Assembly (NCBI RefSeq): GCF_008974265.1
Contig: NZ_BKZW01000002.1
Location: 496,001 to 560,000, forward strand
Direction of reading: 5' to 3'
Length of the DNA: 64,000 bases
Source: Dictyobacter vulcani
Lineage (GTDB): Bacteria; Chloroflexota; Ktedonobacteria; Ktedonobacterales; Ktedonobacteraceae
In this document: piece by piece, positions 1 through 41,468 of the stretch
Numbering within the stretch: position 1 is the stretch's first letter
Layout: every line of letters starts with the position of its first letter
Translations under genes and position numbers: made by a program
Notes under the pieces: generated by a model
The model's input: only the letters and a program-made list of their open reading frames with translations
Told to the model about the DNA's origin: nothing
The model's database searches: none

Positions 1-107
1 TCTACGATTATCCAACGATCCAGCACTTTGCCGATTATCTGTCCAGGGAATTGGGCAAACAACGTGCTGAGCATCCGGTGGTGAGTATCAAGATCAAGCC
101 CGCAGGA
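1..107 (+). repeat. tandem ACP repeat, copy 1 (3' part)
   Basis: Positions 1-107 match 484-590 with only a few substitutions, at an offset of 483 nt (161 codons). This is the end of one ACP plus linker, followed by the next ACP, so the protein carries at least two nearly identical ACPs in a row. Confidence 0.9.
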
Positions 108-38700: not shown

Positions 38701-41468
38701 GGAGTATGATCAATTCCTTTGGCGCGGGCGGATCCTATGCGAATCTAATCATTGAGGAATACATCGCAGATCCTGTTGTCAGTCTGCCCAGTTCTGCATC
38801 TTCGCAAGAATCGCTTTTCATTTTTTCAGCCAGAACGCCATGGAGTCTCAGAAAATATCTTGAAAAGATGCGTATATTCCTGCGCAAAAATCCCTTCTTA
38901 GATATGGGAGACATTGCTCGAAGCTTGCAAAAACTCAATCATGGTCTGGAACACCGAGTGGCTATTCTGTCATCATCGATAGATGACCTCATAGTTAAAC
39001 TGGATACCGTGCAAACAGCGAGCACAGGTGTGCAAGAATGCGATATCTACACCTCCTTTGATCACACATCCTCCCATGTCGATGTGACGGATGCATTTAC
39101 TATCCTGCAATTGCTGGAAAAAAAGAATCTCAGACAGGTGGCTCGGCATTGGGTCGCAGGAGCAAGAATAGATTTTAAACCCCTCTATAAAATTCAGGGA
39201 ACAGCATGGGTTGATCTACCTCATTATGTGTTCGATCACCAGATGGCCTTTCGTTTTGTTGACGACCATGTATTTGCCGAAGATGAGCATGATGAAGAGC
39301 CAGCACCATATCGAAGCGACAAAGTACCAGCTATTGTGACGACTGCTGGGGACAAGAAGCACCGTATCCTCGAAAGGTATGCATACGACGACCCTTATCT
39401 CAAGGGCCATCAAATGAATGGTGAGCAGGTACTGATCGGAGCGACGTATGGAAGCCTGGCCGTAAAAGCTTTTTTCCACCTCTTTCCCGATCAACATAGT
39501 ATATGCATGCGCAATCTCACATATATCGAACCGGTTGCCGTGAATGAAAACCAACAAGTGGAAGTGAAAGTGGAGAGTTTGCAAAAAGGTACCACGACTG
39601 CTTTTCAAGTTCTCTATCGTCACACATCCGCAGATGCATGGAAGCCAACCGCAACTGGCCAATACGAAAAAGCGCCTTTTGAAGGCAGATATTGCGATAT
39701 ACAGCATATACAAAGCACCCTACAAGAATTCCAGGATGTGGATCGGATATACAAGCGCGGTAAGGGTCTGGTCGAGTGGGGAGACATATTCAAGCGCATT
39801 ACATGCGTGTATATAGGACCTGACCAGGTACTTGCCCACATCGACTGTGCGCCAGGCAAGCAAGAAGACACGCACACCTATGAGTTAAACCCACTTATTA
39901 CCAATACCGCGTATCTCGCCATGATGTATGTGTTGGAGCAAGCACATGTCGAAGGAGGCTTTTTGCCATTTAGCATTAATGAGATCCAGTTCGCAAAGAA
40001 TAAGACATTTACGAATGGTTGGTTGCACATAAAATTAGTAAAAATTTCAGGTGAAGTTGTAATATTCGACGTGGATGCAATCAATGAAGTGTCTGAAGTA
40101 GTGGTCTGCTACACAGGCTATGCATTAAAGAGGAATTACATCGCTAGCAATACCCGCGAAAGCAAAGAAGGCAGCGGCAGTCGTATGCCAGAACTCCAGC
40201 ACCCCATGCCGCCCTCGTATGCGAATGATACCTCTAGCATGAATGATATTGCTAGAAAAATCATGAAATATTTGTCTGATAAACTGAGCAATACCGTCGC
40301 TGATACTGCACAATTATGCGACATCGAAGTGAGCTGGATGGAACTAGGGTTAGATTCTTCTCGCCTGCTTGCAATGACGCATGAAATCGAAGAAGAAACA
40401 AAGATCGAATTAAATTCAACCTTACTGTTTGAATATCCGAATATCAAAGAACTGACAGAATTCTTTGCTAGAGAACATGCAGAAATATTTATCCAATTAT
40501 TGGAACGTGCTCCCGTTGAAAAGAGCAACAGACTTTCTATAGAGCAGATACGTAAAGAGTTTCCTGAGCTTGTGCACCTCAACAGAAAATACCAGGGACA
40601 GCCCGTATTCTGGTTTCATGCCGGACAAGGTGGAGTAGAGATATACCAGACGATTGCCCAAAGGAGCCCACGGCCTTTTTACGGAATCCGTGCACGGGGA
40701 TATATGGACAATCAGGTCCCAATTCGAGGGATCAAAAAAATGGCCACCTATTACATTGATATCATGCGCTCTGTACAGCCGGAAGGTCCCTATGATGTCG
40801 GAGGATATTCTTTAGGAGGGATGGTAGCGTATGAAATTACGCGCCAATTGCAACAGGCGGGACAAAAAGTGAACACCATGGTCATGATTGATGTCCCAGG
40901 TGGTCCAATATTTAGAGAGCAACGACCTTCTGCTAAATCTTTAATTTTGCAAGCGGTCAATACAATGCTGTCTTCTCTAGTGAAAGATGCGGAGCAATGG
41001 GATCAGCACCTCATCAGTGTTGAAGAAATCGATCTCAACTCAGGGGATGAGGCGTTTTTGAAGAAGATGATTAGCCTTGCCAATGCACGGGGCCTGACTA
41101 AGACGAAAACACAAATACGTAACCAGATTCAGCAAAATGTCAGGCTGCAAAGAGCTTACGATATTGCAAATTATATAGCTTTACCACTGCCTGACGCAAA
41201 AGCTGTGGATTGTTATTATCTTCGGAATAGCAGTGGTGTGTTCCTTGGTGTCTTAGAGCCATACCTTACCATTCCGAATGACAAAATAGCGCTGGATCGT
41301 ACAGCATACTGGGAAGAATGGGAGCGACTGATGCCCGATTTCCATATCATTGATATAGATGCATCCAACCATATGATGATGTTATCTGAAGCCAGGGCTG
41401 TTGAAGCGATAGCAGAGTTCTGCGAAAGCTTCTACGTTGGTCGTGAGATCTATGCATCATCGCTGTGA
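35790..41468 (+). CDS. trans-AT PKS gene C: cMT-ACP-KS0-DH*-ACP-thioesterase (terminal protein)
   Basis: The start at ATG 35790 has AAGGAAGG just upstream, 15 nt after the stop of gene B. Domains by nt: C-methyltransferase (35800-36860, EIGAGTGG), completing the DH-KR module left open by gene B; ACP (37010-37270, GIDSI); KS (37455-38770) with Cys in SSACSSS but Ala in place of the HGTGT His (38382-38384, reads AANGS), hence predicted non-elongating; a DH-like fold (39370-40130) keeping His in HQMNG but lacking Pro and the Asp/Gln pair (NPLITNTAY); ACP (40240-40510, GLDSS); thioesterase (40600-41440) with Ser in GYSLGG and a C-terminal SNHMMM His. The TE hydrolyses or cyclises the finished chain. 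What KS0 and the degenerate DH do before release is open: they may be relics, or may serve a cyclisation or isomerisation. Confidence 0.92.
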   Translation: MSNVEQLLYKVVWGQLQCIGFFTEKSVAVDLKTESRLPDLYRRWIEETAAILTRNHYLKQEGERYIALDPTRLDMDTVWQAWDEQKATLLADSNMKAMVTLVDATVRALPDILSGKVLATDIIFPDSSMELVEGVYKQNQVADYFNEVLADTLVAYIQECLKSEPGMALRILEIGAGTGGTSVTVFQKLKSYQDYIQEYCYSDVSRAFLLHAEREYGPYNPYLTYRIFNVETPIIEQDIAAGSYDVVIAANVLHATKDIRQTLRNAKAVLKNNGLLLLNEINSNNIFSHLTFGLLEGWWRYEDPALRIAGCPSLYPETWRRVLENEGFRDVSFMAEEDHDLGQQIIVAESDGVIRHRKQPKAGDIAVKPVAIQHAQEEISYNHGPHVLQEEKSSAHALPAKPEIYVPISDDLLAGRTLQFIKETLAKAIKLSPERIEADASFEKYGIDSILQVNFIRELEKVTGDLPKTILFEYSNAQELVEYLIKNHTKKLREWISPPNNAAPPVPEASVSVTPAVQVASFSVKPDRFLASQQVERTNQEQNAQIQQGNERTQETDDIAIIGISGRYPLSNTLEELWEHLKAGQNCITEVATDRWKNSFLNRLSKDRPRKTDTKYYGGFLASIDRFDYQLFEVNRQQVMEMAPEIRLFLEVVWETFENAGYSKFRLNELQSRQQKGVGVFVGNMYNQYFLSIPSLEQAVLSSNGTDWHIANRISHFFNLTGPSLAISSACSSSLTAIHLACESLKQQSCSMAIAGGINLALDPSKYAVLQRAHLLGSGNESKSFGISDGFIPGEGVGSVLLKPLSRAIQDHDHIYAVIKSSSVNHSGGRQMYAAPDPKQQAQLITNSIWQSGIDPTTIGYVESAANGSELGDSIEVIALQQAFAHYTEKKQFCALGSVKSNLGHLEAASGVSQLSKVLLQMEHATLVPSINAKPINPNIKLEKTAFYLQQATEPWKQPLDSRTGKNLPRRSMINSFGAGGSYANLIIEEYIADPVVSLPSSASSQESLFIFSARTPWSLRKYLEKMRIFLRKNPFLDMGDIARSLQKLNHGLEHRVAILSSSIDDLIVKLDTVQTASTGVQECDIYTSFDHTSSHVDVTDAFTILQLLEKKNLRQVARHWVAGARIDFKPLYKIQGTAWVDLPHYVFDHQMAFRFVDDHVFAEDEHDEEPAPYRSDKVPAIVTTAGDKKHRILERYAYDDPYLKGHQMNGEQVLIGATYGSLAVKAFFHLFPDQHSICMRNLTYIEPVAVNENQQVEVKVESLQKGTTTAFQVLYRHTSADAWKPTATGQYEKAPFEGRYCDIQHIQSTLQEFQDVDRIYKRGKGLVEWGDIFKRITCVYIGPDQVLAHIDCAPGKQEDTHTYELNPLITNTAYLAMMYVLEQAHVEGGFLPFSINEIQFAKNKTFTNGWLHIKLVKISGEVVIFDVDAINEVSEVVVCYTGYALKRNYIASNTRESKEGSGSRMPELQHPMPPSYANDTSSMNDIARKIMKYLSDKLSNTVADTAQLCDIEVSWMELGLDSSRLLAMTHEIEEETKIELNSTLLFEYPNIKELTEFFAREHAEIFIQLLERAPVEKSNRLSIEQIRKEFPELVHLNRKYQGQPVFWFHAGQGGVEIYQTIAQRSPRPFYGIRARGYMDNQVPIRGIKKMATYYIDIMRSVQPEGPYDVGGYSLGGMVAYEITRQLQQAGQKVNTMVMIDVPGGPIFREQRPSAKSLILQAVNTMLSSLVKDAEQWDQHLISVEEIDLNSGDEAFLKKMISLANARGLTKTKTQIRNQIQQNVRLQRAYDIANYIALPLPDAKAVDCYYLRNSSGVFLGVLEPYLTIPNDKIALDRTAYWEEWERLMPDFHIIDIDASNHMMMLSEARAVEAIAEFCESFYVGREIYASSL

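Follow-up and report, generated by a model that had tools for sequence, protein, structure and literature searches.

Bacillaene-type trans-AT assembly lines, named after the antibiotic that Bacillus produces with them, combine polyketide synthase (PKS) and nonribosomal peptide synthetase (NRPS) modules. They are encoded by the pksX or bae genes and have been described as almost exclusive to Bacillus (PMC7930024), with variants in Paenibacillus and Brevibacillus (PMC4397504). According to the account given in PMC4397504, the bae system incorporates alpha-hydroxyisocaproate and glycine at BaeJ and alanine at BaeN, and its modules 4, 8 and 14 are split between genes. Here, we describe a 64,000-nucleotide stretch of the genome of the soil bacterium Dictyobacter vulcani (7.4 Mb, seven contigs), referred to as the window, which corresponds to C2:496001-560000, C2 being contig NZ_BKZW01000002.1. 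Very probably, the window contains the latter half of a trans-AT PKS/NRPS of bacillaene type that was horizontally acquired from Bacillota and is now carried on a 1.57-Mb secondary replicon of Dictyobacter. Its product class is known, but an assembly line of this type was not expected in the lineage of Dictyobacter, a phylum new to it.

The full cluster spans 74 kb of plus-strand genes (C2:463778-537468), so that the window cuts off its 5' part, and contains 14 in-line KS domains, five of them upstream of the window, plus one KS in an HMGS cassette. Relatives were identified by scanning for the HMGS in one genome per species (320 found, the best 80, in 75 loci, being kept), and longer regions of eight loci chosen out of the 75 were annotated with profiles built from the Dictyobacter cluster. 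The same assembly line, module by module and with the same gene splits, was found in Bacillus spizizenii, Bacillus atrophaeus, Bacillus swezeyi, Hazenella coriacea and Brevibacillus dissolubilis, with the exception of ACP numbers and of the last KS-ACP. In particular, the three Bacillus clusters share with that of Dictyobacter the AT, the acyl hydrolase and the AT-ER, the ACP, KS, HMGS and ECH, the FAAL-ACP-C-A-PCP start, 14 of the 15 in-line KS modules in order, the gene splits and the KS0 positions. Modules 4, 8 and 14 are split between genes as in bae, and the two KS0 bimodules, the beta-branch module and the alanine module stand in bacillaene order. Differences are also present, as the first KR module has two ACPs in the three Bacillus clusters and a single one in Dictyobacter and Hazenella, while some AT, ER, ACP and KS genes outside the megasynthases differ in place or presence in Hazenella and Brevibacillus. 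Under the same annotation, the bacillaene order was not found in the regions of Paenibacillus brasilensis, Pelosinus fermentans and Dictyobacter arantiisoli. The closest relative found is the cluster of H. coriacea (Thermoactinomycetaceae), with an HMGS at 85% identity and KS2-KS15 at 72-89%; one of its AT genes lies after the TE. Both H. coriacea and B. dissolubilis thus carry bacillaene-type clusters outside Bacillus, with PksS homologues adjoining an AT gene.

Comparison of the single domains leads to the same assignment. Position by position, KS2-KS15 have a mean identity of 81.3% to Hazenella (72.3-89.3), 79.6% to Brevibacillus and 77.6-78.8% to the three Bacillus clusters (77.6% to B. 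spizizenii), values that include two Dictyobacter KS shortened by frame breaks. In a KS tree of 107 rows, built by a quick method with SH-aLRT support and leaving out the B. swezeyi and Pelosinus rows, KS1, 3, 6, 7, 10, 11 and 15 cluster with their positional counterparts; the pairs KS2/12, 4/8, 5/9 and 13/14 of Dictyobacter are sisters, inside the clades of those positions, and the KS2/12 clade additionally contains a KS of P. brasilensis. The nine code residues of A1 (DILQLGMIW), the substrate of which is glycine according to PMC4397504, are those of B. spizizenii, Hazenella and Brevibacillus and differ by one residue from those of B. atrophaeus and B. swezeyi, whereas the code of A2 (DVSNMAIIY), assigned to alanine by the same source, is identical in all five Bacillota clusters. 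The KS catalytic triads agree at 15/15 positions with four Bacillota clusters and at 14/14 with Brevibacillus, and the DH His/Asp(Asn) residues at 9/9 with B. spizizenii and Hazenella; Ser and Tyr are present in all nine KR, and the Ser core in all 19 ACP. Among structures in the PDB, AT1 best matches PksC (5dz6) and AT2 PksD (8avz), while KS7 matches 7zma first and then PksL (5erf). At the position where PMC11775670 describes a diagnostic Arg, AT2 has a Gln, as read by eye on an alignment in which the position was placed by a FabD motif. Thus, judged by homology, the assembly line is of the bacillaene type (pksX/bae), in a variant without one terminal module. Since domain order, gene splits, A codes, catalytic residues and KS clades all match pksX/bae, the predicted product class is no longer unknown. 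A first-pass annotation of the window had not recognised the domain order as that of a known compound; cluster comparison and the KS tree correct this, as the order is that of bacillaene except for one missing terminal module.

Upstream of the window, on the same strand, lie an AT (AT1), a second AT (AT2, acyl hydrolase) and an AT-ER (AT3-ER), together with the HMGS cassette (ACP, KS, HMGS and two ECH), the KS of which has Ser instead of Cys in its active site. The cassette is followed by FAAL-ACP-C-A-PCP-KS-DH-KR-ACP, namely the glycine module, and by further modules, so that the AT, HMGS cassette and loading module that the first-pass annotation expected upstream are all in place. In window 1-41468, domain annotation bore out its count of nine KS, one C, one A with its PCP and one TE, with no AT or ER domain. 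KS-family Pfam matches of the window proteins have E-values from 9.4e-65 to 2.7e-267, far beyond chance, and several proteins have more than one KS. The modules run from tandem ACPs and a KS (beta-branch) and a KS-KR-ACP/KS0-DH-ACP bimodule, through KS-DH-KR-MT, KS-KR, KS-ACP and C-A-PCP, to two KS-DH-KR, a KS-DH-KR-MT and a final KS0-DH*-ACP-TE, which is the order and module-by-module trans-AT PKS/NRPS chemistry already proposed. The three genes then distinguished correspond to 5730-19106, 19108-35774 and 35790-41468. However, a frame break near 20811 divides the middle one, and the first 5629 nucleotides are the 3' part of a fourth gene. By domain annotation and cluster comparison, the features are as follows (window coordinates, all on the plus strand):

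1-5629, 3' part of the PksL/BaeL-type gene, with frame breaks near 3549 and 5589
to 56 and 321-539, tandem ACPs; 777-1919, KS7; the beta-branch position of the PksL/BaeL-type gene
3258-3850, KR; 4118-4336, ACP; 4517-5599, KS8, a KS0 (H to N), in the same gene
5730-19106, PksM/BaeM-type gene
5913-6743, DH; 6879-7097, ACP; 7236-8402, KS9; 9096-9974, DH; PksM/BaeM-type gene
10683-11222, KR; 11955-12524, MT; 12708-12923, ACP; 13089-14198, KS10; PksM/BaeM-type gene
15639-16181, KR; 16446-16664, ACP; 16836-17969, KS11; 18726-18944, ACP; PksM/BaeM-type gene
19108-35774, PksN/BaeN-type gene, with a break near 20811 giving open reading frames (ORFs) 19108-20829 and 20754-35774
19204-20541, C; 20805-22073, A; 22158-22370, PCP; 22458-23615, KS12; PksN/BaeN-type gene
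24294-25169, DH; 25737-26294, KR; 26565-26783, ACP; 26949-28121, KS13; PksN/BaeN-type gene
28854-29705, DH; 30276-30833, KR; 31101-31319, ACP; 31485-32651, KS14; PksN/BaeN-type gene
33390-34253, DH; 34962-35501, KR; PksN/BaeN-type gene
35790-41468, PksR/BaeR-type gene; 36240-36809, MT; 37041-37256, ACP
37455-38615, KS15, a KS0 (H to A); 39330-40139, DH* (D to N); 40263-40481, ACP; 40590-41444, TE; PksR/BaeR-type gene

If active, the assembly line would start with the FAAL (AL) domain loading an alpha-hydroxy acid onto the first ACP, which the glycine module would then condense. The trans-acting AT (PksC-like) and the AT-ER (PksE-like) are predicted to malonylate the modules, with the PksD-like acyl hydrolase freeing stalled ACPs. 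A polyene would be built by the two KS-KR-ACP/KS0-DH-ACP bimodules and the KS-DH-KR modules, and at the tandem ACPs the HMGS cassette would introduce the beta-branch. The KS-KR module would leave a hydroxyl and the KS-ACP module a beta-keto unit, before the second NRPS module adds what is probably alanine. Three KS-DH-KR modules may then generate a terminal triene bearing a single alpha-methyl group, after which KS0-DH*-ACP-TE would release a bacillaene- or dihydrobacillaene-like acid.

The host itself is Dictyobacter, of the Chloroflexota, the phylum that the first-pass annotation had given as probable: in a comparison of seven RpoB rows, self included, identity is 95.5% to D. arantiisoli and 65.1-67.3% to five Bacilli. 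The HMGS is instead 80-85% identical to those of Hazenella, Brevibacillus and Bacillus. In an HMGS tree of 63 of the 75 loci plus the Dictyobacter one (12 left out; SH-aLRT support only), it falls in a 13-row clade with 12 Bacillota rows, including the five compared clusters (support 97), and the HMGS of D. arantiisoli is placed elsewhere. Because an HMGS identity of 80-85% is far above the 65-67% of RpoB, the likeliest explanation is that the cluster was acquired horizontally from Bacillota, a direction that we infer from these comparisons. Vertical inheritance within Chloroflexota, also considered, is rejected on the distribution of two markers, one sought in 61 genomes of relatives and the other in 400 Chloroflexota genomes. 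Among 61 genomes of relatives, six have an HMGS match (own included) but only two a strong one, namely D. vulcani and D. arantiisoli, the latter in a different cluster; the other four have E-values of 3e-6 to 6e-4. In 400 Chloroflexota genomes, own included, with scoring confined to one or two leading first-look candidates from each, the KS15-DH9 marker was strong only in the D. vulcani genome among the matches listed, the next best there having 44% (KS part) and 34% identity. The trans-AT cluster of D. arantiisoli, albeit from the same genus, has an HMGS cassette with an HMGS at 73%, 16 KS, several MT and a different module order, and over the 79.9 kb examined it lacks C and A domains. For 15/15 of the KS from D. 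vulcani, the best match in D. arantiisoli is weaker than the best in each of B. spizizenii, B. atrophaeus, B. swezeyi and Hazenella. As for the replicon, PMC13289182 describes the smaller of the two largest contigs of D. vulcani W12, the one that carries the cluster, as an extrachromosomal element-like contig with chromid-like features, 31.1% of which is taken up by biosynthetic gene clusters (BGCs).

Some findings weigh against a bacillaene-type cluster received from Bacillota. The 13-row HMGS clade is unresolved at its base and has SH-aLRT support only. At least nine frame breaks fall inside the megasynthase genes. The KS16-ACP that stands between the ACP of KS15 and the TE in 5/5 Bacillota clusters, before the TE in Bacillus and Hazenella alike, is absent in Dictyobacter. 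In addition, the cytochrome P450 flanking the cluster is distant from PksS, at 47% and 41% identity for its two ORFs as opposed to 75% and 71% for the homologues of Hazenella and Brevibacillus, and a different P450 elsewhere in the genome is 46% identical over its length in the same comparison. The flanking gene, split into two ORFs at C2:462039-463264 (window -33961 to -32736, minus strand) upstream of the megasynthases, adjoins the AT genes as the PksS homologues do in Hazenella and Brevibacillus, but on the opposite strand; with its split and its 47%/41% identity, it is probably not a plain PksS orthologue.

Three alternatives were considered. One is that the locus makes a novel trans-AT polyketide that is native to Chloroflexota and has a domain order not recognised so far, an idea that draws on an order that is truncated and unfamiliar within the window alone and on a cluster with one module fewer than in Bacillus. 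It is nevertheless highly improbable, as the whole-cluster order, the KS clades, the A codes and the KS0 positions are those of bacillaene and the best KS15-DH9 from elsewhere in the 400 Chloroflexota, among the matches listed, reaches 44% over the KS part; the module-by-module match and the KS clades of bacillaene in fact refute an unknown compound. A cluster that was acquired, then pseudogenised and now makes no product is a more serious candidate, though still an unlikely one. The frame breaks, the split P450 and the missing terminal module would fit such decay, and two of the nine breaks as well as the P450 split are located outside internal repeats. On the other hand, seven of the nine breaks (positions read by eye, a group of length differences near C2 486.4-486.6 kb being taken as a single break) are inside internal repeats that make up 35% of the region (p 0.011 in a one-sided binomial test), many are at G/C runs, and two 6.8-kb copies lose frame at different sites, while the catalytic residues of KS, DH, KR and ACP and the A codes are retained. 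Owing to the repeats, the G/C runs and the differing sites of loss, the pattern looks more like consensus errors, of a kind that short reads fail to mend within repeats, than like decay.

Somewhat less probable again is a bacillaene relative with an altered chain end or release, in which, after the loss of KS16-ACP, the TE would receive the chain straight from the ACP of KS15. The absence of a module that all five Bacillota clusters keep speaks for it. Nonetheless, the terminal C9 triene acid of bacillaene is already accounted for by three extensions after alanine, and KS15 and KS16 should not extend, so that the product would be unchanged. The bacillaene-type cluster acquired from Bacillota thus remains by far the preferred reading, and its natural lack of the terminal KS-ACP offers a test of the need for that module.

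A second aspect of the locus concerns near-identical module tracts, of which the longest lie as follows (plus strand):

window 2454-9256 (C2:498454-505256), second copy of a 6.8-kb tract, GC-rich, 90.7% DNA identity to C2:484402-491166
window 21573-24371 (C2:517573-520371), alanine-module tract, 96.5% to C2:477322-480120
window 25032-26419 (C2:521032-522419), DH end and KR tract, 92.5% to C2:480760-482147 in the Gly-side module

The 6.8-kb pair is read as a putative gene conversion between bimodules. C2:477322-480120 holds the 3' end of A, PCP, KS and the start of DH of the glycine module, and the tract common to the glycine and alanine modules starts past the nine specificity residues of the A domain (counted by eye on the alignment). 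Tandem ACPs are likewise linked by high DNA identity, the tracts overall being 90-97% identical. The long tracts have about 53-67% GC per kb compared with 41-50% across most of the remainder, and GC islands extend over C2:477322-505256 and C2:517573-528651 (window -18678 to 9256 and 21573 to 32651). In a comparison limited to long domains, mean GC at third codon positions (GC3) is 71.1 for those KS that have a paralogue of at least 88% DNA identity (n=8) and 47.7 for those below 80% (n=6). At the same KS positions, the difference is 0.8 to 1.9 in B. spizizenii, B. atrophaeus, B. swezeyi and Brevibacillus and 6.0 in Hazenella, which is itself partly homogenised. When 29 regions were considered, 26 had at least four KS and six were testable; five of the six have a GC3 excess (+4.4 to +23.4), Paenibacillus tyrfis being the exception (-0.8), with a Wilcoxon p of 0.0625 and a sign-test p of 0.22. 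In Pseudomonas batumici, two KS at 100% DNA identity have a GC3 9.7 points above that of the region's other KS.

These data tentatively suggest, with somewhat less than even confidence, a GC bias in the gene conversion that links trans-AT PKS modules, with GC3 rising at every round of homogenisation and converted modules turning into GC islands. The correlation between GC3 and paralogue identity is however positive, weakly to moderately, also in clusters where no pair was converted (rho 0.15 to 0.67 for KS), so that part of the signal is compositional, a shared composition slightly lifting DNA identity. Alternatively, the islands may stem from the import of GC-rich modules followed by duplication. 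If GC-biased conversion holds, GC3 would flag recently converted modules, concerted evolution would explain within-cluster module pairing in some KS trees, and the bias would be testable across any PKS collection. No report of biased gene conversion in polyketide synthases was found in the literature, as covered by titles and the starts of abstracts.

Among the papers listed, the same coverage showed no report of this Dictyobacter cluster, and the word bacillaene is absent from the main text of PMC6497799, PMC13289182 and PMC12453558. As PMC13289182 gives 5% (80/1,546) of ktedonobacterial BGCs as having at least 80% resemblance to known clusters, a supplementary table may already contain the match. 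A near-complete copy in Chloroflexota indicates that an assembly line of 74 kb is able to move between phyla and become established on a chromid-like replicon, and its recognition saves effort otherwise spent on a supposedly 'novel' product.

The surroundings of the cluster include a pair of ABC transporter genes upstream (C2:458577-460208, minus strand), possibly an exporter. A few genes past the cluster end, a 1284-residue regulator with BTAD and AAA ATPase domains is encoded at window 46977-50831 on the plus strand, followed by a small TIR-domain protein at 55117-55587 on the minus strand. Finally, a large open frame that matches SpvB and RHS repeats occupies window 59986-63999 on the plus strand and continues beyond the window.

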